DNA of 64,000 nucleotides from assembly GCF_014644315.1 (NCBI RefSeq), contig NZ_BMKL01000001.1, forward strand, positions 2,367,001 to 2,431,000. Direction: 5' to 3'. The position numbers were made by a program, and so were the translations under genes. Positions 17,690-42,963 of this stretch are shown in pieces; the first letter of the stretch is position 1, and every line of letters starts with the position of its first letter. The DNA is from Tsuneonella deserti. Lineage in GTDB: Bacteria > Pseudomonadota > Alphaproteobacteria > Sphingomonadales > Sphingomonadaceae. The notes under the pieces were generated by a model, which saw only the letters and a program-made list of their open reading frames with translations, ran no database searches and was not told where the DNA came from.

Positions 17690-18604
17690 ATGACAGCGCA
17701 GCTTACGCACCTCCAGCGGCTCGAGGCCGAGGCGATCCACATCATGCGCGAGGTCGTCGCCGAGGCGGAGCGGCCGGTCATGCTCTATTCGGTGGGCAAG
17801 GACAGCGCGGTCATGCTGCACCTCGCGCGCAAGGCATTCTACCCGTCGCCGCCGCCCTTCCCGCTGCTTCATGTCGATACGACCTGGAAGTTCCGCGCGA
17901 TGTATGAGTTGCGTGACCGGATGGCAGACGATTCCGGCATGCAACTGCTGGTCTGGCAGAACCGGGAAGCGGCTGAGCGCGGCATAAACCCGTTCGATCA
18001 CGGTCCGCTGCACACCGACATGTGGAAGACCGAAGGGCTGAAGCAGGCGCTCGACCATTACGGCTTTGACGCTGCGTTCGGTGGCGCCCGGCGCGACGAG
18101 GAAAAGAGCCGTGCCAAGGAGCGGGTTTTCTCGTTTCGCACGGCCAGTCACGGCTGGGATCCCAAAAACCAGCGGCCCGAGCTGTGGAACCTCTACAACG
18201 CCCGAAAGAACAAGGGCGAGAGCATCCGCGTCTTCCCCATCAGCAACTGGACCGAGCTCGACATCTGGCAGTACATCATGGCCGAGGGGATCGAGATCGT
18301 ACCGCTCTATTTCGCCGCGCCGCGTCCAACGTTCGTGCATGACGGGCTGCTGCTGATGGCGGACGACGTCGAGCGGCTCGAGCGCGTGCTCGGTTACCGG
18401 CCCGAGATCACCGAGCGCTCGGTCCGCTTCCGCACGCTGGGCTGTTTCCCGCTCACCGGAGCGGTCGAGAGCGAGGCGGCGAGCCTGAGCGAAGTCGTCC
18501 AGGAAACGCTGCTCACCACCACATCCGAACGGCAGGGCCGCGCGATCGACAAGGACGCCGGGGGCGCGGGCATGGAAGTCAAGAAGCAGCAGGGATACTT
18601 CTGA
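17690..18604 (+). CDS. cysD: Sulfate adenylyltransferase subunit 2, CysD
   Basis: CysD makes adenosine 5'-phosphosulfate (APS) from ATP and sulfate, driven by GTP hydrolysis in CysN. The 304-residue product has the PP-loop SVGKDSA (residues 34-40), [27 protein letters not shown] and the interface end [13 protein letters not shown] 17690 gives the usual [19 protein letters not shown] start; an upstream in-frame ATG at 17609 adds unrelated residues. It is followed two bases later by cysNC and then cysQ, with no cysH, cysI or cysJ, which points to PAPS use for sulfation as much as for assimilation. Confidence 0.95.
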
Positions 18605-18606
18605 CG

Positions 18607-20517
18607 ATGAGCGAGCCGATCTACCAGACCGATGCGCTCATCGCCGAGGACATCGAGGCCTATCTCGACCAGCATCGCAACAAGACGATGCTGCGCTTCA
18701 TCACCTGCGGCAGCGTCGATGACGGCAAGTCCACCCTCATCGGGCGCCTGCTCTACGACAGCAAGATGATTTTCGAGGACCAGCTGGCCGCGCTCGAAAG
18801 CGACAGCAAGCGGGTCGGCACGCAGGGGCAAGAAATCGACTTCGCGCTGCTGGTGGATGGTCTTGCTGCCGAACGCGAGCAAGGCATCACGATCGACGTC
18901 GCCTATCGCTTCTTCGGAACCGAGAAACGCAAGTTCATCGTCGCGGACTGCCCGGGGCATGAACAGTACACCCGCAACATGGTCACCGGTGCCAGCACCG
19001 CCGACCTCGCGGTGATCCTCGTCGATGCACGCAAGGGCGTGCTCGTCCAGACCCGCCGCCACAGCTACCTTTGCCACCTGATCGGCATCCGCAACGTGGT
19101 CCTCGCGGTCAACAAGATGGACCTCGTCGATTACTCGCAGGAGGTATTCGACAAGATCGTGGCGGACTACTCGGCTTTCGCGTCGAGCATCGGCATCGAG
19201 AGCTTCACAGCGATTCCCATTTCCGGGTTCCGGGGCGACAACATCACGCTCGCACCGAGCGCGAACACGCCTTGGTACGCGGGGCCGAGCCTGGTCGATC
19301 ATCTCGAGACGGTCGAATTGCGCACCGCGGCCGACGCCGAAAAGCCGTTCCGCCTCCCGGTCCAATGGGTCAACCGTCCCAACCTGGACTTCCGGGGGTT
19401 CGCAGGACTGGTCGCGACCGGCCGCATCGCGCCAGGAGATCCGGTGCGCGTGCTGCCTTCCGGCAAGACCACCTCGGTGGAGCGGATCGTCACGCTGGAG
19501 GGCGACCTCGGCGAAGCCGTCGCCGGACAATCGGTGACGCTGACTTTCGCGGACGAGATCGACTGCAGCCGCGGCAACGTCATCGCTGCAGCCGGCGACC
19601 CGCCCGAGGTTGCCGACCAGTTCGAAGCGACGGTGGTGTGGATGGCAGACGATGCCATGCACGTTGGCCGCGGATACTGGCTCAAGCTTGCTACGCAGAC
19701 CGTTTCGGCCACCGTCGCGCAGCCGAAATACGAGATCGACGTCAACAGCCTCGAGCACCTCGCTGCCAAGACGCTGGAGTTGAACCAGATCGGCGTGGTA
19801 GAGTTGACCACCGACAAGCCGATCGTGTTCGAAAACTACGCCCAGAGCCGCGCGCTGGGCGGGTTCATTCTGATCGACAAGCTGACCAACGCCACTGTCG
19901 CAGCCGGGATGCTGCACTTTAGCCTGCGCCGCAGCCAGAACGTCCACTGGCAGCCGACCGACATTGGCCGCGACCACCACGCGGCGCTCAAGAACCAGAC
20001 GCCGAAGGTGCTGTGGTTCACCGGCCTTTCGGGATCGGGCAAGTCAACCATCGCCAACGAGGTCGAGAAGCGTCTCGCGCTGATGAACCGGCACACCTTC
20101 CTGCTCGATGGCGACAACGTTCGCCACGGGCTCAACAAGGATTTGGGCTTTACCGAGACCGACCGGATCGAGAACATCCGCCGCGTGGGCGAAGTGGCGC
20201 GGCTGATGGCGGATGCCGGCCTGATCGTGCTCACCGCCTTCATCAGTCCGTTCCGGGCGGAGCGCGAGATGGTCCGCGCCATGTTGCCTGCGGGCGAGTT
20301 CGTCGAAATCTTCGTCGATACCCCTCTCGAAGTCGCCGAGGCACGTGACGTGAAGGGTCTCTACAAGAAGGCCCGCGCCGGTGAGCTCAAGAACTTCACC
20401 GGCATCGACAGTCCTTACGAACCGCCGGAAAACCCGGACATCGTGGTCGACACCGTAACAATGACGGCCCAGGAAGCTGCGCAACACATCGTCGACAGGC
20501 TGCTGCCGCTCAAATGA
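18607..20517 (+). CDS. cysNC: Bifunctional CysN/CysC: GTPase subunit of ATP sulfurylase fused to APS kinase
   Basis: The 636-residue fusion performs the GTP-dependent half of sulfate adenylation and then phosphorylates APS to PAPS. The N-terminal EF-Tu-like GTPase shows G1 GSVDDGKST (35-43), G3 DCPGHEQY (about 119-126) and G4 NKMD (about 168-171), followed by beta-barrel domains. From about residue 460 it becomes APS kinase with P-loop GLSGSGKST (about 473-481), [15 protein letters not shown], and [15 protein letters not shown]. Such NodQ-type fusions supply PAPS, the sulfate donor for sulfotransferases. It sits between cysD and cysQ and overlaps cysQ by four bases. Confidence 0.96.
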
Positions 20518-21272
20518 ACGATCACGAACTGGCCGCCCACCTCGCGTCCGAAGCCGGGCGCATCCTTCTCGAGGTACGTGAGAGCGGCAAGCATCACGGC
20601 AAGGACCTCGGCCGTGCAGGCGATGCCGAAGCGAACGCGCTGCTGGTCGCGGCACTTCGCGAATTGCGGCCCGACGACGGATTGTTGTCGGAGGAGGAGA
20701 AAGACAGCCCGATGCGCCTCGGCAAGCCGCGCACGTGGATCGTCGATCCGCTCGACGGTACGCGCGAATATGGAGAGGGCCGGAGCGATTGGGCGGTCCA
20801 CGTCGCCCTGGCAGTGGAAGGACAGCCTGCGATCGGTGCGGTCGCCCTGCCAGCGCTGCGCGAAGTCCTGCGCACCGATCGCCCCTCTTCAATGCCACCC
20901 GCAGTCGCGACGCCGCGCATGGTAGTCAGCCGCACCCGCCCCGCGCGCGAGGCGGAACTGGTGGCTGAAGCACTGGGCGCCGAACTGGTGCCGATGGGGA
21001 GCGCCGGGGCCAAGGCCATGGCCGTGGTGCGGGGCGAGGCCGAGATCTACCTCCACACCGGCGGGCAATACGAGTGGGACAGCTGCGCGCCCGCCGCGGT
21101 GGCCCTGGCGCACGGTTTCCACGCGTCGCGCATCGATGGCAGCCCGCTGCTCTACAACCAGGCCGATGCTTACATGCCGGATCTGCTGGTCTGCCGCCCC
21201 GAGCTGGCCGAGCGCGCTCTGGCAACGATTGCACAAGATGCTTTGATGGTCTGTCGCAGCGCTGGCAGCTAG
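20514..21272 (+). CDS. cysQ: 3'(2'),5'-bisphosphate nucleotidase CysQ
   Basis: CysQ hydrolyses PAP, the by-product of sulfotransfer and PAPS reduction, to AMP. The 252-residue product belongs to the inositol-monophosphatase superfamily, with EEEKDSP (about 62-68) and the Mg-binding DPLDGT (about 78-83), and the final metal motif in [10 protein letters not shown]. It overlaps cysNC by four bases, so PAPS synthesis and PAP removal are co-translated. A PAP-removing enzyme is required when several sulfotransferases work, and four are encoded in the following 22 kb. Confidence 0.93.
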
Positions 21273-21308
21273 TCTACTACGTTTCACTTTACCCCTATGC
21301 GAGCCGAC

Positions 21309-22340
21309 ATGGACCAGAATATCATCTTGATCACCGGCGGTACAGGTTCCTTCGGAAAAACCATCTTACGAGATTTGCTCCAAGCCAACGTTGACGAGAT
21401 CCGCATCCTCAGTCGAGACGAGGAAAAGCAGGATGCCCTCCGCAACTTAATTAATGACCCCCGCGTTCGCTTCTATATTGGCGATGTACGGGACCGGGCG
21501 AGTGTTGACCGGGCAGCGAAAGGAGTCGATGCAATTTTTCATGCTGCTGCGCTCAAACAGGTACCGAGTTGCGAGTTCTTCCCACTTGAAGCAGTGCGCA
21601 CCAACATCCTTGGCTCCGAAAACATCATTCGTTCGGCGATCGAGAACGTAGTACCAAGCCTCGTATGCCTGTCTACGGACAAGGCGGTCATGCCGATCAA
21701 CGCAATGGGAATGAGCAAGGCGTTGCTTGAAAAGGCCGCCCAAGCTGCTGCACGTGAAATCGGCCCTCAAGCAAGGACCACGATTAGCTGTGTGCGCTAT
21801 GGCAACGTCATGTATTCGCGCGGATCGGTCATCCCGCTCTTTGTCAAGCAAATAAAGGAAAGTCGTGCGATTACCGTGACCGAGCCGAAAATGACCCGGT
21901 TCCTCATGCCTTTGCGCGACAGCGTGGCCCTAGTACGTTTTGCCTTCACGCATGCACGGCAAGGGGACTTATTCGTTAAGAAAGCTGCCGCCTCGACCAT
22001 TGCGGACCTGATCGAAGCGCTGAAGGAATTGTTCGGCGTGCCGGACCACCCCGTCGAGGTGATCGGCTGGCGGCATGGCGAGAAGCTCTATGAGACGCTG
22101 GCGAGCGCCCAGGAACTGGCGACCGCCGAGGACATGGACGAGTACTGGCGCCTGCGGCTCGACGCGCGCGACCTCAACTACGCGGCCTATTTCGACGAAG
22201 GCGAGCGCGAGACGGCGACGCTGCAGGACTACCACTCGCATAACACGCAGCGGCTCGACGTCGCCGGGGTGCGCGACCTGCTGCTGACGCTGCCCGAGAT
22301 CCAGGCCGAGCTAGCTGATTGGACGGCGAGCCGGGCATGA
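21309..22340 (+). CDS. capE: UDP-GlcNAc 4,6-dehydratase/5-epimerase CapE (FnlA/WbjB type)
   Basis: First enzyme of UDP-N-acetyl-L-fucosamine synthesis: it dehydrates UDP-GlcNAc at C4/C6 and inverts C5. The 343-residue short-chain reductase has the nucleotide loop TGGTGSFGK near the N terminus, the AALKQVPSCEFFP segment, STDKAVMPINAMGMSK with the Met-x3-Lys active-site pair that replaces the usual Tyr-x3-Lys in this subfamily, and WRHGEKLYETL. ATG 21309 is preferred by family length; ATG 21297 is also open. It begins 36 bp after cysQ and overlaps capF by four bases, so the sulfate-activation and sugar operons may be one transcript. Confidence 0.92.
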   Translation: MDQNIILITGGTGSFGKTILRDLLQANVDEIRILSRDEEKQDALRNLINDPRVRFYIGDVRDRASVDRAAKGVDAIFHAAALKQVPSCEFFPLEAVRTNILGSENIIRSAIENVVPSLVCLSTDKAVMPINAMGMSKALLEKAAQAAAREIGPQARTTISCVRYGNVMYSRGSVIPLFVKQIKESRAITVTEPKMTRFLMPLRDSVALVRFAFTHARQGDLFVKKAAASTIADLIEALKELFGVPDHPVEVIGWRHGEKLYETLASAQELATAEDMDEYWRLRLDARDLNYAAYFDEGERETATLQDYHSHNTQRLDVAGVRDLLLTLPEIQAELADWTASRA

Positions 22341-23467
22341 AGATCGTCGTCACCGGCGCGCGGGGCCTGCTCGGCTGGCACGCCGCCGCGCGGCTGCACG
22401 CACGCAACTGCGACGCACGCTTCCGCGGCGATGCGGAGCCATTTGAGCTGGTGTGCCTCGACCGCGATGCGTTCGGCGACGACGCGAATCTCGCCGCAGC
22501 GATCTCCGGAGCGGACGCTGTGCTGAATTTCGCCGGCATCAACCGCGGCACCGACGACGATGTCGAGGCCGGCAATCCGGCAATCGCCACGCGGCTGGTC
22601 GAGGGCTGCAAGGCCGCCGGCGCCGCGCCGCATATCGTTTACGCCAACAGCGTCCATTGCTCGCGCGACAATTCCTACGGTCGCTCGAAAGCCGGGGCGG
22701 CCCGGATCCTGCGCGATTTTGCCGGTTCAAAGTTCACCGACCTAGTCCTGCCGCACATCTTCGGCGAGTGCGCGCGACCTGACTATAACAACGTCACCGC
22801 CACGCTGATCGACCGGATTGCGAGAGGCGAGACGCCCGAGATCAACCCGAACGGCGCGGTCGAGCTGCTCCACGCGGGAGAAGCGGCCGACCTTGCGATC
22901 GCCGCCGCGCTTGAGGGCGGACCAGACCTGCTCGAACCGCAGGGCCGCAAACTCAAGGTGAGCGAGCTCTACGACACTCTGCTCGGCTTCCACGCCAGCT
23001 ATACGGGGAACGTCTTTCCCGACCTTTTGGACCCCTTCGACCTAGCGCTGTTCAACAGCTACCGCACCGGGCTTTACCCGCAGCACTATCCGCGCATGCT
23101 TAAGCTCAACTCGGACGCGCGCGGCACGCTGTTTGAGGCGGCCAAGGGCGGCAATGCATCGCAGAGTTTCCTATCCACAACCGCGCCCGGCATCCGCCGC
23201 GGCGACCATTTTCACACCAGCTTGGTCGAGCGGTTCCTCGTGGTGCGGGGCGAGGCGGTCATCCGCATCCGCAAGGTGCTGACTGACGAGGTCGAGACCT
23301 TCACCGTGTCGGGCCGCGAACCGGCGGCAATCGACATGCCGCCCTTGCACACTCACCACATCGAGAACACCGGCAAGGGGGAACTGCTGACCTATTTCTG
23401 GGCCCATCGGATGTTCGAACCGCTAAATCCCGACACCTTCGCCGATCCGGTGCTAGGGGCCGATTGA
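22337..23467 (+). CDS. capF: CapF-type reductase/epimerase with C-terminal cupin (FnlB/WbjC)
   Basis: Second enzyme of UDP-L-FucNAc synthesis, converting the CapE product towards UDP-2-acetamido-2,6-dideoxy-L-talose. The 376-residue protein has an N-terminal NAD(P)-binding fold beginning MKIVVTGARGLLGWHAA, an active-site segment NSYGRSKAGAARIL (Tyr-x3-Lys type), and a C-terminal cupin domain (about 255-370) with RRGDHFHTSLVERFLVVRGEA and DMPPLHTHHIENTG. This two-domain arrangement is diagnostic for CapF. The ATG overlaps the capE stop by four bases and the gene shares one base with capG. Confidence 0.92.
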   Translation: MKIVVTGARGLLGWHAAARLHARNCDARFRGDAEPFELVCLDRDAFGDDANLAAAISGADAVLNFAGINRGTDDDVEAGNPAIATRLVEGCKAAGAAPHIVYANSVHCSRDNSYGRSKAGAARILRDFAGSKFTDLVLPHIFGECARPDYNNVTATLIDRIARGETPEINPNGAVELLHAGEAADLAIAAALEGGPDLLEPQGRKLKVSELYDTLLGFHASYTGNVFPDLLDPFDLALFNSYRTGLYPQHYPRMLKLNSDARGTLFEAAKGGNASQSFLSTTAPGIRRGDHFHTSLVERFLVVRGEAVIRIRKVLTDEVETFTVSGREPAAIDMPPLHTHHIENTGKGELLTYFWAHRMFEPLNPDTFADPVLGAD

Positions 23468-24621
23468 TGGGCAAGCTCAAGATCACTACAGTCCTCGGTA
23501 CGAGGCCGGAAATCATCCGGCTTTCGCGCGTGCTCGCGCGGCTCGACGAGTACGTCGATCACCGCATCGTCCATACCGGGCAGAACTGGGACTACGAACT
23601 CAACGAGGTGTTTTTCAGCGACCTTGGCGTGCGCGCGCCGGACAACTTCCTCGGCGTCGATACCTCCAGCCTCGGCACGGTTCTGGGCGGCACGCTGATC
23701 GCCATCGAGCAGGAATTCCGCGTGCACCGGCCCGACGCGATGCTGGTGCTGGGCGACACCAATTCCTCGATCGCCGCGATCATGGCGCGGCGGATGAAGA
23801 TCCCTATTTACCACATGGAAGCAGGCAACCGCAGCTTCGACCGCAACGTGCCGGAAGAGACCAACCGCCGGCTGGTTGACCACATCGCCGACTTCAACCT
23901 CGTTTACACCGAGCATGCGCGGCGCCACCTGCTGAGCGAAGGCATCGAGCATCGGCGGATCTATCTCACCGGCTCGCCAATGCGCGAGGTGCTCGACCAT
24001 TACCGCGATGCTATTGCCGCCTCCGGCGTGCTGGGCGAGCTAGGGCTGGAAGAAGACGGCTACTACGTCGTATCGATGCACCGCGAGGAAAACGTCGACA
24101 GCCACGCGCGGCTCGCCTCGCTTGTGGCCACGCTCAACGAACTGGCTGCGCGCTACGATATGCCCGTCATCGTCTCGACACACCCGCGCACGCGCAAGCG
24201 CCTCAAGGAGCTCGAGGATGTCGAGCTCGACGAACGGGTGCGCTACCTCAAGCCTTTCGGCTTCCACGACTACAACCGGCTGCAGGCCTCCGCGCGCTGC
24301 GTGATTTCGGACAGCGGAACGATTGCCGAGGAGAGCTCCATCCTCGGGTTCGCCGCGATCACCCCGCGCGACGCGATCGAGCGGCCCGAGGCGATGGACA
24401 CCGGCAACATCATCGTCACCGGATTCGACCGGGAAACGATCATGGCCGCGATCGAAGCGGCGGTCGCCTTGCAGGGCGAGCGAGATGCGAGCGGCAAGGT
24501 GCCGGCGATCCCGGCCGAATACGAGGTTACGAACACCTCCGAGCGGATGCTCAAGCTTATCCTTGGCACGGCGAGACTGTCGAACGGATGGGACGGGATC
24601 CGGCTGCACGACCATGTGTGA
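23467..24621 (+). CDS. capG: UDP-N-acetylglucosamine 2-epimerase family protein CapG (FnlC/WbjD)
   Basis: Third enzyme of the UDP-L-FucNAc pathway: it epimerises C2 of the talose intermediate to give the L-fuco sugar. The 384-residue product has the non-hydrolysing 2-epimerase signature VLGTRPEIIRLSRVL at the start, VLGDTNSSIAA and HMEAGNRSFDRNVPEETNRRLVDHIAD, and MHREENVD in the second domain. The order capE-capF-capG is conserved in the Staphylococcus, Pseudomonas and E. coli loci. Its stop lies inside the start of the next gene (overlap of eight bases). Confidence 0.92.
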   Translation: MGKLKITTVLGTRPEIIRLSRVLARLDEYVDHRIVHTGQNWDYELNEVFFSDLGVRAPDNFLGVDTSSLGTVLGGTLIAIEQEFRVHRPDAMLVLGDTNSSIAAIMARRMKIPIYHMEAGNRSFDRNVPEETNRRLVDHIADFNLVYTEHARRHLLSEGIEHRRIYLTGSPMREVLDHYRDAIAASGVLGELGLEEDGYYVVSMHREENVDSHARLASLVATLNELAARYDMPVIVSTHPRTRKRLKELEDVELDERVRYLKPFGFHDYNRLQASARCVISDSGTIAEESSILGFAAITPRDAIERPEAMDTGNIIVTGFDRETIMAAIEAAVALQGERDASGKVPAIPAEYEVTNTSERMLKLILGTARLSNGWDGIRLHDHV

Positions 24622-25846
24622 CCGTGCCGGGACCGCCCCACGCCGCGTGCTGATCCTCTATCGCCACTACCGGCCGGACAGCCCGCCCTATGCGACCATG
24701 CTCGCGATGCTGGCGGAGCGGCTGGCGGGGGAGGGCCACGCGATCAATGTCTGGACCGAGCAGCCTAGCTACAAGTCGAACGATGCTGCGCTCAACTTGC
24801 CCGGCGGGTCTAACGAAGGCGGCGTGAGGGTCGAGCGCATGGCGCGCCTGCCGCTCTATGGCCGCCTCGGCGCGATGCGCCTGCTCGACAAGGTGCTGTT
24901 CCCGCTGCGGCTGGTGCTCAAGGCGCTGCTTCGCTGCCTTGCGGGTGAGCGCTACGACGTCGTCTGGACCGCAACCATCCCGCCGATCGCACAGGGCCTC
25001 GCCGGGCGCATGGTCGCGCGCATCTTCGGCGCGCGGTTCGTTTATCACTGCCAGGACTTGTACCCCGAGATCGCGGTCCACGTGGGTCTTTGGCGCGGGG
25101 GCGGCCTGCTGCATTCGCTGAGCCGCAGGGTCGAGCGGGCGACGCGGTCAAAGGCTGATCCTCTGGTCACGCTCTCGCCCGACATGGCCCGGACAGCGAC
25201 GGCCTTAACCAAGCCTCGCTCGCTCGTCGTCCTTAACAACTTCGCGCTGGAGGAACTCGGCGACCCGGCGGAATTCCCAGAGCGGGGATTCTCGCTCGAC
25301 GCGTCGTTGAAGCTGACCTTCGCCGGCAACCTCGGACGTTTCCAGGGCCTCGAATTGGTCGCGGAGGGTGTCGCGCAGGTCGACCAGCAGCGCTGCCCGG
25401 TCCAACTGCAGTTCATCGGCGAAGGCACCGCGCTTCCCGCGCTTCGCGAGCGTGCGCGGTCAGTCCCCGCGATCGGCTTCGAGCCGCACCGCCCGTTCGC
25501 CGAGGCGCGTCCGCTGATCGCCGCTGCGCACGTCGGGCTGGTGGCACTCGAGCCGGGCATCATCGATTTCGCGTTTCCGTCGAAGACCATGACTTACCTC
25601 TCGCTCGGCCTGCCGATTCTCGCGCTGGTCGAGAGGGATAGCTCGCTTGCCGCCATGCTTGCCGAGCGCCGGCTCGGTTGGACTATTTCGCGCCGCGAGC
25701 CGGAAGCGGTGGCGGATATCCTGCCAAGGGTGCGCAGCGAGGTGCTGGCGGGAGGCTATACCCGCGACCGGATCATTGCCGAGGCAAGCGACCTGTTTGC
25801 CTTCGATCGCGCCGCGCAGGTCTGGGGGCGCGACATTCTGCGCTAG
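24614..25846 (+). CDS. WbuB-like GT4 glycosyltransferase
   Basis: The 410-residue product has a GT-B fold with RVLILYRHYRPDSPPYATM at the N terminus, ARFVYHCQDLYPEIAVHVG, TFAGNLGRFQGLE, and GLVALEPGIIDFAFPSKTMTYLSLG for the UDP-sugar site. The YHCQDLYPE run resembles WbuB, which transfers L-fucosamine in loci with CapEFG, so it is a good candidate to use UDP-L-FucNAc. ATG 24614 lies within the end of capG. Its 3' end meets the convergent DUF1501 gene with a four-base overlap, so the capE-to-wbuB operon ends here. Confidence 0.87.
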   Translation: MCDRAGTAPRRVLILYRHYRPDSPPYATMLAMLAERLAGEGHAINVWTEQPSYKSNDAALNLPGGSNEGGVRVERMARLPLYGRLGAMRLLDKVLFPLRLVLKALLRCLAGERYDVVWTATIPPIAQGLAGRMVARIFGARFVYHCQDLYPEIAVHVGLWRGGGLLHSLSRRVERATRSKADPLVTLSPDMARTATALTKPRSLVVLNNFALEELGDPAEFPERGFSLDASLKLTFAGNLGRFQGLELVAEGVAQVDQQRCPVQLQFIGEGTALPALRERARSVPAIGFEPHRPFAEARPLIAAAHVGLVALEPGIIDFAFPSKTMTYLSLGLPILALVERDSSLAAMLAERRLGWTISRREPEAVADILPRVRSEVLAGGYTRDRIIAEASDLFAFDRAAQVWGRDILR

Positions 25847-28331: not shown

Positions 28332-28459
28332 GCCGGCAGAATCATACCAGCGGACTTAACCTAAGCAAAATGCGGCGGTCAGATTGCCGCGCACTTGTTG
28401 CATTATGGCATTTGGCCTAGCAGAAGCCGTCGCAGAAACCGTATCAGGGGAGCCAAGAG

Positions 28460-29509: not shown

Positions 29510-30103
29510 GTGACCCGCTATCAGGAAATCCTCAAGCGTGCGTTCGACGTCGTGGTGTCGGGGCTCGCGATCCTGCCCGCCGCTCCGGTCATCGCCGCCT
29601 GCGCGCTCGCCGCACGACGCGACACCGGAGCGAGCGGGATCTTCAGCCAGCAGCGCGTCGGGCGCGGCGGCAGGCTTTTCACGGTCTACAAGATCCGCAC
29701 TATGCGCGCGGTCGGCGGGCCGACGGTGACAACCGCGGGTGATGCCCGTATCACCCCGCTCGGGGCGAAGATGCGGCGCTGGAAGCTCGACGAGCTGCCG
29801 CAGCTGTGGAACGTGCTCAAGGGCGACATGAGTTTAGTTGGCCCGCGGCCCGACGTGCCGGGGTTCGCCGACAGGCTGACGGGCGAGGAGCGCGACATGC
29901 TGCGGCTGCGCCCGGGCATCACCGGCCCGGCCACGCTCAAGTACCGCGACGAGGAAACCCTGCTCGCCGGGCAGGCCGATCCCGAGCGCTACAACGCGGA
30001 GGCTGTCTGGCCGGACAAAGTCGCGATCAACCTTGCCTACATGAACGACTGGTCGCTGGGCCGCGACATCGCGCTGATCTGGCGCACTGTGGCCGGGTCC
30101 TGA
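29510..30103 (+). CDS. Initiating sugar-phosphate transferase (PglC/WcaJ-domain, monotopic PGT)
   Basis: The 197-residue product is the short form of the polyprenyl-phosphate sugar-1-phosphate transferase superfamily. It has the re-entrant membrane helix KRAFDVVVSGLAILPAAPVIAA, then SQQRVGRGGRLFTVYKIRTM, the catalytic Asp-Glu pair in RRWKLDELPQLWNVLKGDMSLVGPRP, and RPGITGPA. The length matches PglC-type enzymes, which commonly use UDP-diNAc-bacillosamine or related sugars, rather than the long WcaJ form. It attaches the first sugar to undecaprenyl phosphate. GTG 29510 is the start; a sulfotransferase gene follows two bases after its stop. Confidence 0.92.
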   Translation: MTRYQEILKRAFDVVVSGLAILPAAPVIAACALAARRDTGASGIFSQQRVGRGGRLFTVYKIRTMRAVGGPTVTTAGDARITPLGAKMRRWKLDELPQLWNVLKGDMSLVGPRPDVPGFADRLTGEERDMLRLRPGITGPATLKYRDEETLLAGQADPERYNAEAVWPDKVAINLAYMNDWSLGRDIALIWRTVAGS

Positions 30104-32126: not shown

Positions 32127-32127
32127 A

Positions 32128-35677: not shown

Positions 35678-35728
35678 TGACCGGGGGCGGGAGGTTGACA
35701 ACCCTTCTTTATTAGGGGCCTGAGTGAA

Positions 35729-37204
35729 ATGCTTGCAATCAATGCAATTATCCAAAAGCACACGGCCTTCATGCTCGTATTGTTACTGGTGGCGGCGCTG
35801 ATTTCGCCACTTAGCCTTACTAGTTCTACCATTCTGATATGCCTTGGCGGACTCTTGTCGGTCTTCATCGCCGGCGCCGGCCTCACAACCGTTCGATTAT
35901 TGAAACTGGACGGTACACTTGTCTGGATGCCAATTACGATATTTGTCATATCGTCGGCTTTGTTTTATGGCTTTGGGCCTCTGGCTTTTGTGTTCGGAAG
36001 CGAAGGTACGAAGGCATACCTAGCGCTTAGACTCGTGCGAGCGTCGCCCGAGGACTTGCTCCGTGCAACGCAATTGAGCTTTCTTGGCATTACGCTAGTG
36101 TTCGCGGGCGCCGCCGCGGCATTAACTTTCTTGGAACGGGAAGGAAAAGCGAAAGCTAAGGACGTCGCAAGAAGTCCGTTTTCTCCCGGAATGCTCGCGG
36201 CCGTATTCCTGATAGTAGGCTTGGTCCTGAAATACGCAATATGGTACCCGGCAACATGGGGTGTAGTGGACTTTACTGTGCCTGGTTTTGTGGCACTTTT
36301 CGCCGCCCTTGCGGCACTTGGTTTTGGACTTTTCGCCTTTGTAGCCTTTTCACGGGGAGGCGCACTAATTGGCGCTTTTTTTGCGCTCTGGTTGATAGAC
36401 TTTTTGTGCACGACACTTAACTTTGCTAAATTCGACCTTATGTTGGCGATTGCCTTTCCCTTGGCGGGGTATTTTCTAGCCACTCGTAACTTTGCAGTAA
36501 CGACTTTCGCGGTTATGGCGGCTCTCGCAACCTACTCCTATTCGCAGCCAATGATGAATTACGCGCGGTACGTAGGGGTGACGGACGAGAACGCTGCTGG
36601 TTACGCTGAGCGGGCGGAGACGATCTACTACTACGTTACCGAGCGTCCAGACATAATACAAAACGCAAACTATCTGGATTCGCAGAGATGGTGGACGAGG
36701 TTCGAGTTCGCCGCGAAACAGGCCTTTGCCATGAATCTTCGTGATAACGGCGTGACAAGTCAATCGCTTGCGCAGCTTCCTACGGTGTTCATTCCGCGAA
36801 TCTTCTGGCCCAATAAACCTGAGTTACGCAGCCCCGGCCAAGACTTTTACTACCTGGTCTCCGGTCGCACTACGACGCGAATGTCAATTTCGGTCTACGC
36901 AGATCTATATTGGCAATTCGGATGGGTCGGCGTCATCTTGGGCTCGCCGCTGATAGGCATCGGCCTGGCATTGATGACGAACAAGCTCTTGCCGCACATT
37001 CGCGCGCGAGACTTCGCTTATTTTCCTCTCGTTCTCATCGGCGTTAGATACGCTTTGGTCGATCCTAACAAATATGTGATAAATGGCGTTCTCTCAACGG
37101 CCGCTTTCTTCATACTTTACGCAGTTGCCATCCAGTTCGCGGTCAGAGTTGTAAGCGAGAGCTTCCGAGACAGCGCTTCCAAACATGCTTCCCAAGTTCA
37201 CTGA
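35729..37204 (+). CDS. Candidate polysaccharide repeat-unit polymerase (Wzy-like)
   Basis: The 491-residue protein has roughly eleven membrane segments and a large polar loop (about 280-380) with YYYVTERPDII, RWWTRFEFAAKQAF and PTVFIPRIFWPNKPELRSPG, a layout typical of O-antigen/EPS polymerases. Primary sequence is poorly conserved in this group, so the call rests on topology and on its place just before the Wzx-like flippase. Base composition is clearly more AT-rich than the upstream genes, as is usual for wzy genes. Confidence 0.75.
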   Translation: MLAINAIIQKHTAFMLVLLLVAALISPLSLTSSTILICLGGLLSVFIAGAGLTTVRLLKLDGTLVWMPITIFVISSALFYGFGPLAFVFGSEGTKAYLALRLVRASPEDLLRATQLSFLGITLVFAGAAAALTFLEREGKAKAKDVARSPFSPGMLAAVFLIVGLVLKYAIWYPATWGVVDFTVPGFVALFAALAALGFGLFAFVAFSRGGALIGAFFALWLIDFLCTTLNFAKFDLMLAIAFPLAGYFLATRNFAVTTFAVMAALATYSYSQPMMNYARYVGVTDENAAGYAERAETIYYYVTERPDIIQNANYLDSQRWWTRFEFAAKQAFAMNLRDNGVTSQSLAQLPTVFIPRIFWPNKPELRSPGQDFYYLVSGRTTTRMSISVYADLYWQFGWVGVILGSPLIGIGLALMTNKLLPHIRARDFAYFPLVLIGVRYALVDPNKYVINGVLSTAAFFILYAVAIQFAVRVVSESFRDSASKHASQVH

Positions 37205-37213
37205 ACCTTTTAG

Positions 37214-38563
37214 GTGCGAAGTCTCATCAAGATTTGTGCGCGCCTTGGCGCAGTGGCAATCCGCGCAGGACGGACGACGTCTGCCTTAATGCTCGCGATC
37301 GGTTTTCTAAACCTCGCAATCGGCCTTCTAACGACTGTACTCCTCGCGCAGCTCCTGCCAAGGGCGGGCTACGGAGAATACGTCTTGGCCTTGAGCGTCG
37401 CTAGTATAGCTGCGCTGCCCGTAGAGCTTGGACTGCCCACCCTCATGATGCGGGAGATCGCCAGGTTTCGCGCCGAGGACAAGAATGAACTCATAGCGGC
37501 AATCATAGCCTGGGTATTGGCGTTCGTATCATGTTCCTTCGTGTTCATCGCAGTTGCTTTCCTTGTGTACTACATCACAGTGCGGTCGGAGAAAGTCTCA
37601 GAATGTCTCCAGATCCTATCAATGCTCCTTTTGCTCCCGCTTGCGCTTATGAATTGGGCCCGCGGTATTCTCCAAGGGTTTGATAAACCTGTGCAATTTG
37701 CTTTGCCGGACAGTATATTTCGCCCCGTGCTTTTGTTAATTTTCGTCGGCCTACTAGTGGTCGCGGGCGCTCTGTCCCCTATGATGGTGATGGCTGCCCA
37801 TGTAACGGCCGTCTCACTCTGCTTCTGGTGGTCGATTTCTCGCGCCGCGAAGATCTTGAGATCTTCCGGCGTGCGGTGGCGATTTAACCGCTCCGATCTG
37901 CGCGCGCGAGAATGGCTGGCTTCTCTGCTGCCGATTACCTTGGTCTCCGGCGTCCGCGTGGTTAACCGGCGCATCGACATTGTGATTGTGGGGGCTCTAA
38001 GCTCTACCGCGACGGTTGCCGTCTATAATGTATCTCTCCAGATTACTAGTGTTGTTCTGGTGGCCCAGACAATCCTCAATCAGTCGCTTGGACCCAAGGT
38101 CGCAATGGCACACCACAAAGGTAATACCGAGCAGCTGCGCCGGGAAATCGCCGCCAGTTCGATAATTTCCGCTTCTGCCGCGGTGATTTTCAGCGCGACT
38201 ATCATCTTGGGAGGAAAGTGGGCTATCCCCCGGATCTTTGGTGAGGATTACGCGCATTCCTATAGCCTCGTGTGTATATTGTGCCTTGGGCAACTTTTCA
38301 GCGCACTGATGGGTCCTACAGCATTGCTTCTGAACATGTCTCGGCTCGAGGGAAAGACACTACGCACGGGCATCCTCTCTGCGATCGTTGGCATTTCTCT
38401 CGCAGCGCTCCTTGTTCCGCCTTTGCATGGTGTAGGCGCAGCCATTGCCGCGAGTGCGACGTTAGTTGCGATCCAAGCCCAGAGATGGTGGATGGTAAAA
38501 GAACACATTGGAGTGCGGTGCGATATATTTTCCGCCGTGTCCTTTCTTTTCCACCGAACTTGA
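37214..38563 (+). CDS. Oligosaccharide flippase (Wzx/MOP superfamily)
   Basis: The 449-residue protein has 12 or more membrane segments, beginning LMLAIGFLNLAIGLLTTVLLAQLLPRAGYGEYVLALSV, a common start of polysaccharide flippases, and LGLPTLMMREIARF in the first loop. Wzx moves undecaprenyl-linked repeat units across the inner membrane for polymerisation by Wzy. It follows the Wzy candidate after nine bases (GTG 37214). AT-rich codon use continues here. A sulfotransferase-like gene follows after 15 bp. Confidence 0.88.
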   Translation: MRSLIKICARLGAVAIRAGRTTSALMLAIGFLNLAIGLLTTVLLAQLLPRAGYGEYVLALSVASIAALPVELGLPTLMMREIARFRAEDKNELIAAIIAWVLAFVSCSFVFIAVAFLVYYITVRSEKVSECLQILSMLLLLPLALMNWARGILQGFDKPVQFALPDSIFRPVLLLIFVGLLVVAGALSPMMVMAAHVTAVSLCFWWSISRAAKILRSSGVRWRFNRSDLRAREWLASLLPITLVSGVRVVNRRIDIVIVGALSSTATVAVYNVSLQITSVVLVAQTILNQSLGPKVAMAHHKGNTEQLRREIAASSIISASAAVIFSATIILGGKWAIPRIFGEDYAHSYSLVCILCLGQLFSALMGPTALLLNMSRLEGKTLRTGILSAIVGISLAALLVPPLHGVGAAIAASATLVAIQAQRWWMVKEHIGVRCDIFSAVSFLFHRT

Positions 38564-38578
38564 GAGGAACCAAGCGAA

Positions 38579-39394
38579 GTGCATTATTCTGATGAACTAA
38601 TCTTTTTACACCTCCAAAAAACCGGGGGCAACCATGTCGTCTCCTTACTGGAACAGTATTTCAACTTGTCACAAAAAGGGAAGCATACTGGCATCCTGGG
38701 GGGAGTCTCACGTCCGCATGTTTGGGTAGGCATCCGAAACCCTTGGGACTGGTATGTTTCATTGTGGGCCTACGGTTGCCAGTCGGAAGGTAGTCTATGG
38801 GCATACCTCACTGCCAGCCGAGTGCAGAGTATGATTAGGCTGACAGGGCTTTATGGCGGACGACCGCCTAGCTGGCCGATAGGAATTCGGCAACTCAAGG
38901 CTGTCCCATTCAAGGACGCCGACGCATGGAGGGAGCTTTACAGGGACGCAAGCGATCCTCAGGCCTTCCGACGCTGGCTCCGGCGGCTCCACAGCCATCC
39001 TGGTCAACGGCAAACCGGTGAAGACTATTCCGCGATGCCCCTGGCGTCTACTTGTGGGCTGATGACTGTGAGGTATTTGGAAATCGTCAGTGACGATCAC
39101 AACTGGAAACAGCACCGACTTCAGTTGCGATCCCCCGAGGATGCAGAAAATTATCGCGCAAAGTACTCAGCAGCCACCCGGTTTATCAGAACTGAGAATT
39201 TAGAAGCTGACCTTGCTGTTGCGCTCTCGGACACCAATCGGCATGTTCCAGTCAGGGAACTACGTAAGGTACCTACCAATCGATCTCGTCACCACTCCCC
39301 AGCTTATTACTACGATGACGAGACTAGATCATTAGTCGCGCATAGGGATCGTGTCATAATAGAAACGCACGGGTATTCTTTTCCTAACCCCTAG
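38579..39394 (+). CDS. Sulfotransferase-like protein
   Basis: The 271-residue product begins ELIFLHLQKTGGNHVVSLL, a P-loop-like 5'-phosphosulfate site of the carbohydrate sulfotransferase (Sulfotransfer_2-like) group, and has VGIRNPWDWYVSLWAYG as the likely 3'-phosphate-binding segment. The C-terminal half is polar with TCGLMTVRYLEIV. No signal or membrane segment is seen. GTG 38579 is the likely start. It is the last gene of the long plus-strand operon and overlaps the convergent sulfotransferase gene by 11 bases at the 3' ends. Confidence 0.8.
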   Translation: MHYSDELIFLHLQKTGGNHVVSLLEQYFNLSQKGKHTGILGGVSRPHVWVGIRNPWDWYVSLWAYGCQSEGSLWAYLTASRVQSMIRLTGLYGGRPPSWPIGIRQLKAVPFKDADAWRELYRDASDPQAFRRWLRRLHSHPGQRQTGEDYSAMPLASTCGLMTVRYLEIVSDDHNWKQHRLQLRSPEDAENYRAKYSAATRFIRTENLEADLAVALSDTNRHVPVRELRKVPTNRSRHHSPAYYYDDETRSLVAHRDRVIIETHGYSFPNP

Positions 39395-40142
39395 CCGCTT
39401 GGTCGCATAGCGCTTGGTACTTGGACGCGAGTTCAGGGTCGCGTTCAAGGAGCGGAGACGCGAGACCACTTTCTGCGTCTCGGACTGCGCGAGAAGGATC
39501 AATAGAGGTGCGACCGCGATATTGCGGCGTGTGCCGGAATCCCTCAAGGACGCAGGGATCAAATGGAAGGTTCAGAAACTCCAGAGCGGCGCGTATTGCC
39601 ATTTCAGGCCGCTGAACGAGGTCATCAAAGTGCAATATTGAAAGTTTTGGCCTGTGGTCGAGAGAAGCGCTCAACTCGTATAGGATTTCAACTAAACGTC
39701 GCCACCGATACTCTGCTGTGCCCCGCGACTGATTTCCACGCCTCCTAATGGACGATATAACTTGTTCGGGGCCCCTAATAATTCCTATAATGTGCAGATC
39801 GGGGGCGCGGCGCTGGTAGTCCTTAATGCTAAGCCTTGATTTGCGAAATCCGCCTAAAGGAATAGGGCTTCCTCGAAGGTGGCGCACGATATTAGATGCC
39901 TTTCGCAACTGCATACCGACCCAATCTCGTAGTCGCATTTGAATCGTATGATTTAATTCGATTTGGTGCGGAGCACATAATTTAACCCCGCTGACGGGCT
40001 TGGCAAGTATTCGCAAGGATGCGCCCGTTAGCTCTTCGTTAAGCAAGCTAATATCTGGATGACAACTAAGCATAGCTGCCAGGAGCGTCGTTCCAGAACG
40101 AGGAGCGCCCAAGACCAATAAGTGAACGTTTTTAGAGCTCAT
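39384..40142 (-). CDS. Sulfotransferase family protein
   Basis: The 252-residue product has the classical PAPS loop LVLGAPRSGTTLLAAML at the N terminus and a 3'-phosphate motif IIGIIRGPEQVISSI. The centre contains SILHFDDLVQRPEMAIRAALEFLNLPF, a conserved sulfotransferase ending seen in bacterial members. It overlaps the start of its minus-strand partner (FkbM methyltransferase) by four bases, suggesting the two modify the same product. Acceptor unknown. Confidence 0.87.
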   Translation of the reverse strand: MSSKNVHLLVLGAPRSGTTLLAAMLSCHPDISLLNEELTGASLRILAKPVSGVKLCAPHQIELNHTIQMRLRDWVGMQLRKASNIVRHLRGSPIPLGGFRKSRLSIKDYQRRAPDLHIIGIIRGPEQVISSIRRRGNQSRGTAEYRWRRLVEILYELSASLDHRPKLSILHFDDLVQRPEMAIRAALEFLNLPFDPCVLEGFRHTPQYRGRTSIDPSRAVRDAESGLASPLLERDPELASKYQALCDQAARG

Positions 40143-41020
40143 AACGGAACTGCAACGTTTGCATGGTCAAAAGCCATAACATTAGCTCCAGTCCGCTCAA
40201 TTATATCCTCTCGGATCAAAACAAAGTTAGTTTCGAAAAATCTCTCGAGCTCTGGATGCCAAGCCTGGTGAATCTCGACGCCTTCTGATGTAAGGGCTCC
40301 GAGTTTGTAATTGCGCCCTTCAATCCAATTGAAGACATCCCTCAAATTGTACCCAAAGTCCATCCATCGCCAGTTGTACTCGAACTGGCAAATTTCAATG
40401 CGTGCAGCGTCAAAGAGTTTTTTCGCGCCCTTTATCACATTAAAATCATTACCTTCGGTGTCAATTTTGATTAGCCGGATGGGGCCGTTGAATGAATTTA
40501 GTGGGTATTCATCCAATCGGATCAAAGGAACATCAATGAGATGTCCACGCGCCTCAGGCCCCGCTATTCCGCTGTTACCCGTCTTTTCACCGGTTACGTC
40601 GAAAGAAGCCCACCCGCTGTTATCGCTGACAGCAACCCTCTCAAGAGCGACGCAGGCTCCGGATGACGCTTGTATCAGTCGAGATTCCGCCTCACTGGCC
40701 TGCGCTGGGGCGGGCTCAAAAGCCCAAAGGAAGGTACGTGCGCGGTCGCTGCCAAGCCTGCGCAAAAGGGCTACGCTCCAGTCACCATGATTAGCGCCCA
40801 CATCCAAAAATGCCAAGTCACCCTCGGCCGCGCGCCACCAGGGCAACATTTTATCGAGGAGACCGTACTCCCCGTTAACCTCAGGGTGATTGATTAGGTC
40901 CCTACGAGCTCCTTGATAAAGGAAGCGCCCCAACTGCCAGATCCGCCGTCTGGGAATGAGCCTCTCGATGGCACCATAGAGGGCCAACTTTCTACGTGCG
41001 TTGGACTGGGTTGCTCTCAC
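40139..41020 (-). CDS. FkbM family methyltransferase
   Basis: The 293-residue product has the SAM-binding motif AFLDVGANHGDWSVALLRR and the FkbM block VPLIRLDEYPLN...GPIRLIKIDTEGNDFNVIKGAK. FkbM-type enzymes O-methylate hydroxyls in polyketides and polysaccharides, so methyl ether formation on a sugar is likely here. GTG 41020 is the start. It heads a two-gene minus-strand operon with the sulfotransferase at 39384, divergent from the CgeB-like transferase gene; the 127-bp gap must hold both promoters. Confidence 0.9.
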   Translation of the reverse strand: MRATQSNARRKLALYGAIERLIPRRRIWQLGRFLYQGARRDLINHPEVNGEYGLLDKMLPWWRAAEGDLAFLDVGANHGDWSVALLRRLGSDRARTFLWAFEPAPAQASEAESRLIQASSGACVALERVAVSDNSGWASFDVTGEKTGNSGIAGPEARGHLIDVPLIRLDEYPLNSFNGPIRLIKIDTEGNDFNVIKGAKKLFDAARIEICQFEYNWRWMDFGYNLRDVFNWIEGRNYKLGALTSEGVEIHQAWHPELERFFETNFVLIREDIIERTGANVMAFDHANVAVPL

Positions 41021-41147
41021 GGTTCGGCCGTCTAGGTTGTTCGGCTAAGCAGCACCAGAAGTTTTTGAGCGCGAGTAACGCCCGATCTGGAACGTGGCGA
41101 CAGCAACGGTTAGAGGCTGCTGCAATCTCCTTCAAAGGAACAAGACT

Positions 41148-42215
41148 TTGACCTCTCGCACGTATGATCGGCGCCCGCTGCTAATCTTCGCGTCGGATTT
41201 CTGGGATGGCAGTACGGGTGCCGGATTATGTGAGGGGTTTCGACGCTTAGGTTGGGTCGTCCACCAGATAGAACTAAGGGAATTCGTTGGCCGCAGATCG
41301 CGGGGCCCCCTTGGAAAACTGCTCAAGAAGGCGCAACTCATCGACGGCCCCAAGGAATATCGAGCCGCGATCATCGAAAGTTGCCGAGAACTGCACCCAG
41401 ATCTTTTTCTCACAGTCAAAGGCGTAGCGATCACAGCATCCTTGCTCAAAGCCATTAGAGACATTGGCGTGCCCACCGCAAATTACTATCCTGACGTAGA
41501 CTTCGGCCATGCGAATATACTTGAGGATGCGATCGCCAATTACGACTATTTCTTTACGACGAAGAGATTTCATGAGAATTTTTTATCTCAACTATACTCT
41601 TCTGATCGCTGGAAGTTCGTGCACCACGGTTTTGTGCCGGGTGTGCACGTCCCCCTTTTCCCATCTAACTCCGTCCCGTACCGTTGCGACGTAGGATTTG
41701 CCGGAAATTATTCGATCGCCAAGTCTTCGGCCTTAGACGAGCTGGTGGGGCTCAAGCCTTCGATAGATCTGCTTATCACAGGCCCCAACTGGGGCCGCTT
41801 GAAAAATTCACCTGGCCTGCGTGGCCGAATTGACCGTGTGGAGAGGCGAGGAATCGCCTATGCCGATTTCGTCCAACGTTGTCGGATAAACGTAGCCATG
41901 CATCATGGTGTGGGCCAGCATGGGTGGGAGGATCAGGTCTCAACGCGTACTTTCGAGATCCCCGCATGCGGAGGGTTCATGCTTCATATCGACAATGAGG
42001 AGGTTCGCGACTTATTTTCGGTAGGCACGGAGATCGATACTTTTTCATGTGTCGAAGAGCTGTCAGATAAAATTGACTTCTATCTGACAAAAGACGATCT
42101 ACGCCGAAAAATGGTGGCGCGCGCATATGCTCGCGCAACGAGCGAGCATTCCTATACTCGACGAGCAATCGAAGTTGACCGTGCCTTACACCCCCTCACC
42201 ATTCGCGAGGCATAG
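41148..42215 (+). CDS. CgeB-like glycosyltransferase
   Basis: The 355-residue product has an N-terminal segment PLLIFASDFWDGSTGAGLCEGF, then VPTANYYPDVDFGH and DYFFTTKRFHENF, and a C-terminal glycosyltransferase part with NVAMHHGVGQHGWEDQVSTRTFEIPACGGFMLH, which is the CgeB/GT4-like signature (GG-FML). The TTG at 41148 has a good AAAGGA site eight bases before it; GTG 41094 in the same frame lacks one, so 41148 is preferred. It is a single plus-strand gene between two minus-strand groups and its end overlaps the next sulfotransferase gene by 20 bases. Confidence 0.82.
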   Translation: MTSRTYDRRPLLIFASDFWDGSTGAGLCEGFRRLGWVVHQIELREFVGRRSRGPLGKLLKKAQLIDGPKEYRAAIIESCRELHPDLFLTVKGVAITASLLKAIRDIGVPTANYYPDVDFGHANILEDAIANYDYFFTTKRFHENFLSQLYSSDRWKFVHHGFVPGVHVPLFPSNSVPYRCDVGFAGNYSIAKSSALDELVGLKPSIDLLITGPNWGRLKNSPGLRGRIDRVERRGIAYADFVQRCRINVAMHHGVGQHGWEDQVSTRTFEIPACGGFMLHIDNEEVRDLFSVGTEIDTFSCVEELSDKIDFYLTKDDLRRKMVARAYARATSEHSYTRRAIEVDRALHPLTIREA

Positions 42216-42963
42216 ATTCCCACGGGCTGAATCTTCTGGCTCCCTGCTCATAAAGTATCTCGCCGAGAGTCCTGGTCGTCTTGTCTGGGGATAGATCGCA
42301 GGAACCCACCACGCTTACATCATCACTATACCCAAAAAGTCGGAAGTCGACTTGGTAAAGTCGGTGCAAAATATTTTTTGACGCTTGCGAAAGCTCCCAC
42401 GACGGCGCGTCAGGGGTCACATTCAATTGCGGGACAGACGTTTGCACACCCAAGGCGCGGAAAATTGGTTCGATCTCGACGTCGAGATTTTCAACGCGCG
42501 CTACTGTGTTTGCGAGCAGCGACCCGTCATAAGCGATCAATAATGAGCACTGCGGCGGAATGCGCAATGTGGGCAAGAGTTCCACAAACCCATCGAGCGA
42601 CGTAATCGATCGATAAACTGCTCCGTAGACCTGCTGAAACCTTTGATCGTCCCGATGCCGCAGCACGTGATCGAAGAGCGAGCGTGTACGCGCGTATGGA
42701 TGCCGCACAACGCTGAAGCAGAACATTGCGCTGAAACGGTCGGGCCCAAGCACTTCGCGTGCGGCCTCCAAACCCCAGTGGGAATGAGCACGGAAATCGG
42801 TCAGCATCGGATGTCCCGCGCGCGGAAACAGGCGGCGCGCGCATTTTCCTATCAGGGAACGGTCACCAGGCCGCCTGAGCGGCTCCAACGCTGCGGAGAC
42901 GCTCGTACTCCCCGTTTTAGGGATCCGTACGTAGATAAACTTCCTCGCGTCAGAAACGATCAC
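42196..42963 (-). CDS. Sulfotransferase, carbohydrate (Sulfotransfer_2) type
   Basis: The 255-residue product starts RKFIYVRIPKTGSTSVSAAL, the PKTG[ST]S-type PAPS loop of carbohydrate sulfotransferases, and contains CFSVVRHPYARTRSLFDHVL as the 3'-phosphate site. This subgroup resembles heparan/chondroitin-type enzymes more than the AxRSGTT type at 39384, so it probably acts on a different position. It is the last gene of the minus-strand export operon running from the ligase-like gene (48641) to here, three bases after the preceding stop. Confidence 0.85.
   Translation of the reverse strand: MIVSDARKFIYVRIPKTGSTSVSAALEPLRRPGDRSLIGKCARRLFPRAGHPMLTDFRAHSHWGLEAAREVLGPDRFSAMFCFSVVRHPYARTRSLFDHVLRHRDDQRFQQVYGAVYRSITSLDGFVELLPTLRIPPQCSLLIAYDGSLLANTVARVENLDVEIEPIFRALGVQTSVPQLNVTPDAPSWELSQASKNILHRLYQVDFRLFGYSDDVSVVGSCDLSPDKTTRTLGEILYEQGARRFSPWESMPREW

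Follow-up and report, generated by a model that had tools for sequence, protein, structure and literature searches.

A candidate sulfated surface polysaccharide locus beside a second sulfate-activation module in Tsuneonella deserti

Why should a bacterium keep a second copy of its sulfate-activation genes directly in front of a polysaccharide cluster? The question is raised by a stretch of 64,000 nucleotides from Tsuneonella deserti (contig NZ_BMKL01000001.1, positions 2,367,001 to 2,431,000), which we call the window. Here cysD, cysNC and cysQ stand before capE, capF and capG, and four sulfotransferase genes lie among genes for making and exporting a polymer. We consider it likely that the product of the locus is a surface polysaccharide of the Wzx/Wzy type, that this polymer is sulfated by up to four sulfotransferases dependent on 3'-phosphoadenosine 5'-phosphosulfate (PAPS), and that these are fed by a second cys copy which gene conversion keeps like the first. 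Below, G000 is the genome under study and C1 its contig, other G-numbers are further genomes of the family, L-numbers are named loci, and gene positions are those of the window. Proteins were called by Pfam and NCBIfam profile searches with curated cut-offs.

Sugar-nucleotide, glycosyltransferase and export genes, PAPS synthesis genes and sulfotransferase genes are all present in the cluster (Table 1). The profiles bear out much of what a preliminary description had read from the letters. The cys genes do stand directly before capEFG, and there are four sulfotransferase-like genes, three of them recognised by Pfam (30106, 39384 and 42196; here ST30, ST39 and ST42) and one by fold and motifs (38579; ST38). 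As for the polymer machinery it listed, Wzx, Wzc, Wza and four glycosyltransferases are secure, and the Wzy at 35729 is a weak call. The locus extends to about 50778, past the end at 42963 given there. Repeat units would be assembled on a lipid carrier, flipped, polymerised and exported via Wzc and Wza, and sulfation would take place in the cytoplasm before or during assembly. CysD and CysNC would supply the PAPS and CysQ would clear the leftover 3'-phosphoadenosine 5'-phosphate (PAP).

The four sulfotransferase genes are intact. The grouping of these genes is beyond chance, because G189 and G132, which come from a different genus, have all four in this order and on these strands. Identity to these counterparts is 57% for ST38, 59–60% for ST39, 49% for ST42 and 30–36% for ST30, whose counterpart may not be the orthologue. 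The PAPS-site motifs align with those of both genomes (the first motif of ST30 was compared with G189 only). Both also carry capEFG, the DUF1501 and DUF1800 genes (55–57%), an aminotransferase, an initiating transferase, glycosyltransferases, Wzy, Wzx, FkbM, Wzc, Wza and the proteins at 42967 and 47178; a CapD/PglF counterpart was found in G189, and the acyltransferase at 28460 was found in neither. From 32128 to 48662 the gene order is that of the window, except for the dehydrogenase at 34334, which lies before capE in the other genus. Before 32128 the order is shuffled: ST30, the aminotransferase, the initiating transferase and one glycosyltransferase are rearranged and 30–36% alike, and the last three may likewise be non-orthologous. 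Between the two genera the whole block from capE to CapD differs in orientation with respect to the conserved genes that flank it (17690–50778 against L113, L057 and L114). Of the 397 genomes of the family, three have ST38 itself at E 1e-8, namely G000, G132 and G189. The other ten genomes of the window's genus have a Wzc (best identity 38–52%) but no ST38, and region L119 gave no match with the window's genes.

ST38 belongs to a family without a Pfam model: it has no Pfam match even at E 10, and a search of PDB sequences with its profile reached a best E of 0.11. Its predicted fold is that of a sulfotransferase, and the best folds in a VIA search of the model are heparan sulfate sulfotransferases. 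It carries the 5'- and 3'-phosphate-binding motifs QKTGG and RNPWDWYVS; R53 and S61 are invariant, and K14 and T15 at least 90% conserved, across 54 sequences, in an alignment for which we had chosen to set aside 12 of the 65 homologues. Prediction thus supports the fold of ST38, a putative PAPS-dependent sulfotransferase. Its family is found in 52 named loci (L057–L108), from Proteobacteria and cyanobacteria to Bacteroidota and archaeal metagenome-assembled genomes, and a CysNC or CysC match of at least 53% lies within 10 kb in 4 of these 52 (L068, L070, L076 and L090), many of which end early at contig ends. The nearest solved structures to ST39 are protein-tyrosine sulfotransferases (3.7e-11), and ST42 has no match among PDB sequences at E 1.

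One could also argue that these enzymes modify something else, be it lipopolysaccharide, a glycolipid, a protein glycan or carotenoids. The relationship of ST39 just mentioned, the Wzy_C/ligase-type protein at the locus and the sulfated carotenoids of Erythrobacter flavus would all agree with this. We nevertheless regard it as unlikely, since in two genera all four genes have glycosyltransferases, Wzx, Wzc and Wza around them and the fold of ST38 points to enzymes acting on heparan sulfate.

What, then, would a second cys module contribute to such a polymer? Only 2 bp separate cysD from cysNC, cysNC and cysQ overlap by 4 bp, capE follows cysQ after 24 bp, and no terminator-like site was found between cysQ and capE. 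Hence the module is close enough to capE for a shared transcript, and PAPS synthesis, PAP removal and the synthesis of a sugar of the N-acetyl-L-fucosamine (L-FucNAc) type are probably transcribed together. A second cysD-cysNC-cysQ copy lies 305 kb away at C1:2079.4–2083.0 kb. The two copies align over 3538 bp with 15 mismatches, all near the two ends. Within cysQ the identity falls from 3318 of 3318 positions (17684–21001) to 196 of 207 (21002–21208; 11 mismatches) and then to 25 of 63. Upstream, similarity stops 6 bp before the cysD start codon, and so the control regions of the two copies differ. The local CysD and CysNC do not differ from the housekeeping proteins at any residue, so that any dedication can lie only in location and control: the local copy would raise the dose of the cell's ordinary enzymes and tie it to polymer synthesis, rather than provide a different enzyme.

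The distant copy has NnrS, a B12-type ribonucleotide reductase, MoaA and a TonB receptor as neighbours, on which grounds we rejected it as the sulfation copy. Its place is probably the older one, because the same TonB receptor also follows the single copy of G126 (in G047 it is absent from that position, and one G021 copy has a 58% relative on its other side). Among the 11 genomes of the window's genus a second cys-linked cysQ or CysNC occurs only in G000. We also rejected the cys gene set by itself as a sign of dedication, since relatives with a single copy carry the same set: cysD-cysNC-cysQ is found at 10 of 10 relatives' loci and at the single copies of G189 and G132, and 6 of these 12 loci are single copies. 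The dedicated PAPS supply of the preliminary description therefore holds for the place of the second copy, and fails for its gene set and its enzymes.

Exact identity over 3.3 kb is a classic spot for misassembly, and the second copy could be an artefact. We think this highly improbable: the flanks of the two copies are unrelated, their cysQ ends differ, and G107 and G169 also carry near-identical pairs. A harder question is whether the identity reflects conversion or simply youth. At E 1e-200 two CysNC matches are found in 11 of the 397 family genomes, of which we examined seven (G000, G021, G107, G114, G169, G313 and G323; G151, G162, G245 and G389 lie outside the sample). In G079 two matches are halves of one frame. 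The cysD-cysNC copies group by genome in six of the seven (support 100/99 or 100/100, or identical). Copy identity for cysD, cysNC and cysQ is 99.9%, 99.5% and 70.7% in G169, 98.3%, 99.1% and 84.2% in G107, and 96.0%, 85.1% and 70.4% in G313; in G021 it drops from 98% to 74% inside cysNC, and G114 is less uniform (88.3%, 83.3% and 72.0%). The cysQ tree tells a different story. Here G021 and G169 pair across species by copy type (G021_a with G169_a, 99/98; G021_b with G169_b, 96/95), and the two cysQ genes of G114 fall into different clades. Therefore these modules were duplicated before the species split, though their cysD-cysNC copies look young. In G021 and G169 one tract groups by genome and the next by paralogue, which is the signature that gene conversion would leave. 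G021, G107 and G169 belong to one genus and are not independent.

For G000 itself one could suppose a recent duplication without conversion, the diverged cysQ end being due to recombination at the junction. The uninterrupted identity over 3318 bp and the presence of a second one in 1 of 11 genomes of the genus fit this, as does the fact that the two cysQ genes of G000 are sisters. Those of G107 are sisters too, so that in these two genomes a later duplication is possible. On balance we find it doubtful for G000, a serious alternative nonetheless. The 207 bp before the break are homologous yet 5% diverged, with one amino-acid change, and at that rate of divergence 3318 bases would all stay unchanged with a probability of about 2e-79. 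Moreover, a uniform cysD-cysNC with a diverged cysQ is also seen in G107 and G169, and over part of the tract in G021 and G313. We thus prefer conversion that would cover cysD-cysNC and fade out in cysQ.

Is the cys module connected with sulfotransferases at all, or did a sulfate-activation operon simply come to lie next to a polysaccharide cluster with which it has nothing to do, its PAPS serving other ends? Its gene order is the same as in relatives' single copies, and the cluster exists without it in G189 and G132. However, the housekeeping copy is still present, the module lies immediately before capE, and second copies elsewhere keep similar company. Counting the PF13469 family only, the nearest such gene to the closer copy is 9.6 kb away in G000, 5.5 in G021, 23.6 in G107, 1.1 in G114 (where it directly adjoins cysD), 1.0 in G169, 4.3 in G313 and 22.3 in G323; around the other copy there is no such gene for 80 kb, or its contig lacks one altogether. 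Of the single-copy genomes, G126, G047, G136 and G119 have the nearest one at least 55 kb away, and G079 has none on that contig. Within 10 kb this gives 5 of 7 two-copy genomes against 0 of 5 others (one-sided Fisher 0.027), or 4 of 6 against 0 of 5 without the window's own genome (0.045); the five controls were taken by availability and not at random, and PF13469 genes are fewer in most of them (2 to 6 against 3 to 11). Because two-copy genomes tend to hold more of these genes, we also placed two copies per genome at random, for which the chance of at least 4 of 6 is about 3e-4 when the three genomes from a single genus are counted as independent. With a limit of 25 kb, picked after the distances were seen, the count is 7 of 7 against 0 of 5. 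An unrelated operon is thus improbable. One copy in G021 also adjoins an alkyl-sulfatase-like protein (L051:5579-7441; Lactamase_B and Alkyl_sulf_dimr).

A further question is whether cysteine synthesis needs the same PAPS. The genome holds two cysD, one cysH, two kinase domains for adenosine 5'-phosphosulfate (APS), both in CysNC, and one cysI-like gene. The preliminary description had reported no cysH, cysI or cysJ at the locus. For cysH and cysI this holds throughout the window, and the genome-wide search that it proposed found a single cysH and a single cysI-like gene at C1:1811–1814 kb, together with a small gene that we take to encode DUF934; cysJ was not searched for. All NCBIfam matches of the cysI-like gene stay under cut-off. 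The CC and CxPC cysteines of CysH align with the APS reductase of Pseudomonas aeruginosa (2goy) and with 7lhr (deposited as a PAPS reductase, which we take to be the APS reductase of Mycobacterium tuberculosis), and are missing in 2oq2, 7rge and 6vpu. Paired CC and CxxC cysteines are the cluster ligands of [4Fe-4S] APS reductases. If CysH is an APS reductase, cysteine may be made without PAPS, which would fit PAPS being made for sulfation. Two more PF13469 genes, both higher-scoring, lie elsewhere in the genome (G000:C1:562316 and 1976579) and are other likely PAPS consumers.

Several observations weigh against our interpretation. Sulfate in the polymer is predicted here from genes, not from chemistry. 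The sulfated surface polysaccharide of the preliminary description is the best reading, and the CysH cysteines fit it; as a whole, that description's interpretation is partly supported. A sigma-70 scan of 17400–25900 gave 0 promoter-like sites, including before cysD. CysD and CysNC are above their NCBIfam cut-offs, whereas CysQ is below the one for its name. CysH passes the generic phosphoadenylyl-sulfate reductase profiles (PRK02090 and TIGR00434) and stays below the APS reductase one (TIGR02055, 173.1 against 235.3) and the PAPS_reductase one (TIGR02057, 151.2 against 254.2). The fold of ST38 came through VIA only: Foldseek alone, run with the model against PDB, gave no match at E 0.001. The copies of G323 are about 76% alike and do not group by genome, and to this the sister cysQ genes of G000 must be added. 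In G132 and G189 a single cys module lies some 60 kb from the cluster, whose front has none; hence the local module is not required, and it is best described as an optional extra copy of the housekeeping operon, not a special enzyme. Finally, Erythrobacter flavus belongs to the same order as T. deserti. Strain KJ5 makes sulfated carotenoids by a sulfotransferase that the authors, in the part available to us, describe as not yet identified (PMC6627997), and so PAPS has other uses in the group.

Table 1. Features of the polysaccharide locus, in window coordinates. UDP-GlcNAc, uridine diphosphate N-acetylglucosamine; HexNAc, N-acetylhexosamine; Tat, twin-arginine translocation.
Feature	Position	Strand	Evidence or remark
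cysD, ATP sulfurylase small subunit	17690..18604	+	NF009214/TIGR02039 above cut-off; from start codon identical to L006 copy (C1:2079.4 kb)
cysNC, ATP sulfurylase large subunit fused to APS kinase	18607..20517	+	NF004035, 1065 bits; 0 differences from second copy
cysQ, putative PAP phosphatase	20514..21272	+	PF00459 (Inositol_P) above cut-off; TIGR01331 109.6 bits, cut-off 228.8
Mismatch-free tract against housekeeping copy, 3318 bp	17684..21001	+	Starts 6 bp before cysD start codon
capE-like, UDP-GlcNAc 4,6-dehydratase/5-epimerase	21297..22340	+	PF02719; FnlA 447.8 bits, under cut-off 730
capF-like two-domain reductase (epimerase and Polysacc_synt_C)	22337..23467	+	PF01370, PF14667; ATG at 22337
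capG/wecB-like non-hydrolysing UDP-GlcNAc 2-epimerase	23464..24621	+	TIGR00236 above cut-off
Glycosyltransferase (family 4-like)	24614..25846	+	PF13579, PF13692; in-frame ATG at 24614
DUF1501 protein, N-terminal TRR motif (possible Tat signal)	25843..27003	-	PF07394
DUF1800 protein	26994..28331	-	PF08811, 6.5e-110
Acyltransferase family 3	28460..29497	+	PF01757
Initiating sugar-phosphate transferase	29510..30103	+	PF02397
Sulfotransferase 1 (ST30)	30106..30999	+	PF13469 3.6e-21, PF00685; motifs GAGRSGT, RDGRDVVPS align with relatives
DegT/LegC-like sugar aminotransferase	30996..32126	+	PF01041
Glycosyltransferase	32128..33132	+	PF13692
Glycosyltransferase	33129..34343	+	PF00534
Nucleotide-sugar 6-dehydrogenase	34334..35677	+	TIGR03026 above cut-off
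Putative polymerase Wzy (weak)	35729..37204	+	PF14296 (O-ag_pol_Wzy) E 0.012; position kept in G189/G132
Wzx flippase	37214..38563	+	PF01943
Sulfotransferase 2 (ST38), family without Pfam model	38579..39394	+	Predicted fold, motifs
Sulfotransferase 3 (ST39)	39384..40142	-	PF13469 3.6e-17; protein-tyrosine sulfotransferase in PDB 3.7e-11
FkbM-type methyltransferase	40139..41020	-	PF05050
Glycosyltransferase	41094..42215	+	PF13524
Sulfotransferase 4 (ST42)	42196..42963	-	PF03567 4e-10, above cut-off; motif RIPKTGSTS aligns with relatives
Uncharacterised protein	42967..44184	-	Place kept in G189/G132
Wzc, chain-length/tyrosine autokinase	44188..46398	-	PF02706, PF13807; TIGR01007 above cut-off
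Wza, outer-membrane export	46409..47158	-	PF02563
Wzy_C/O-antigen ligase family protein	47178..48662	-	PF04932
CapD/PglF-like UDP-HexNAc 4,6-dehydratase	48880..50778	+	PF02719 with CoA_binding_3

Which sugars the polymer contains can be narrowed from the genes. The preliminary description had named L-FucNAc and uronic sugars. The first is plausible: capE, capF and capG are consecutive in this order and CapF has the two-domain build, with the wecB equivalog profile above its cut-off and FnlA and WbcJ below theirs. The second may well be an amino-sugar uronate rather than glucuronic acid, because for the dehydrogenase at 34334 the UDP-N-acetylmannosamine and UDP-GlcNAc dehydrogenase models outscore those for UDP-glucose, all of these being under cut-off.

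The content of guanine and cytosine is 52–58% at 34–50 kb of the window, against 61–68% in the first 34 kb, and 55–61% on to 60 kb, so that the drop has no sharp right edge. The low stretch (34000–50000) holds the polymerase, sulfotransferase and export genes and suggests a horizontal origin. At 51030–55227 a protein with 13 RTX repeat stretches (PF00353) precedes an ABC transporter, and the two may form a type I secretion set. Inside the cluster, the DUF1501-DUF1800 pair (25843–28331) lies on the strand opposite to its neighbours. Such a pair also adjoins bacterial chitin synthases, according to the part of one study available to us (PMC5122149), and a periplasmic role in polymer editing would be worth testing.

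If our interpretation is correct, the locus is a concrete and testable candidate for a sulfated exopolysaccharide in Sphingomonadales, with four sulfotransferases. Such polymers had been called poorly described in this order; we found no described locus in the open-access literature, which omits most subscription papers. In the parts available to us, a review names only gellan-type sphingans for Sphingomonas (PMC4189415), and work on E. flavus 21-3 mentions sulfotransferase genes with no link to a polymer (PMC7608252). The homogenised copies are also a natural experiment on whether sulfate activation for cysteine and for sulfation is separated by control or by enzyme. More generally, it could be that across Sphingomonadaceae a second cysD-cysNC-cysQ marks sulfated-glycan loci, that repeated conversion keeps the cysD and cysNC genes of both modules uniform as their cysQ genes and upstream DNA drift apart, and that the enzyme serving sulfation is the housekeeping one, subject to a second control, and not an evolved isoenzyme; we would give this generalisation an even chance. 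If it is true, undescribed sulfated polymers of the order could be sought by looking for genomes with a second cys copy.

Clusters for sulfated capsules that include PAPS genes have already been published from marine bacteria; the homogenised second module is the less expected part. In Cobetia marina KMM 1449, whose polymer was shown to be sulfated, cysNC, cysD, cysQ, a sulfate permease, sulfotransferase and glycosyltransferase genes form one cluster, as far as the source could be consulted (PMC11766843). The cys genes inside a polysaccharide cluster with sulfotransferases are alike. Export there is by an ABC-transporter kps system, unlike the Wzx/Wza/Wzc set, four sulfotransferases and L-FucNAc-type genes here, with no permease among the genes scanned. 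The capsule cluster of Vibrio sp. KMM 8419 likewise has second copies of cysC, cysN and cysD, and its authors, in the sections available, regard PAPS genes with sulfotransferases as a hallmark of sulfated polysaccharide synthesis (PMC11641403); cysC and cysN are separate there, with ABC export and rhamnose sugars, whereas cysNC is fused here. The synechan xss cluster of Synechocystis resembles ours in joining exopolysaccharide machinery to more than one sulfotransferase, but has two rather than four, and the part of the source available names no PAPS genes in the cluster, where ours has a cys module (PMC13125312).

The use of extra copies has a parallel in symbiosis and their likeness one in translation. 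In rhizobia the additional CysD/CysNC-type copies encoded by nodPQ feed PAPS to a glycan sulfotransferase (nodH/noeE). The product is a lipo-chitooligosaccharide signal, unlike the surface polymer proposed here. Sinorhizobium has two NodQ genes, as stated in the part of the source available (PMC1780047). In the open-access literature we found no report of gene conversion of nodPQ or of sulfate adenylyltransferase. Distant paralogous tuf genes of Salmonella are reportedly kept alike by gene conversion, and CysN is of the same GTPase superfamily. There the copies encode translation factors, whereas here they are metabolic operons that become less alike in the course of their third gene.

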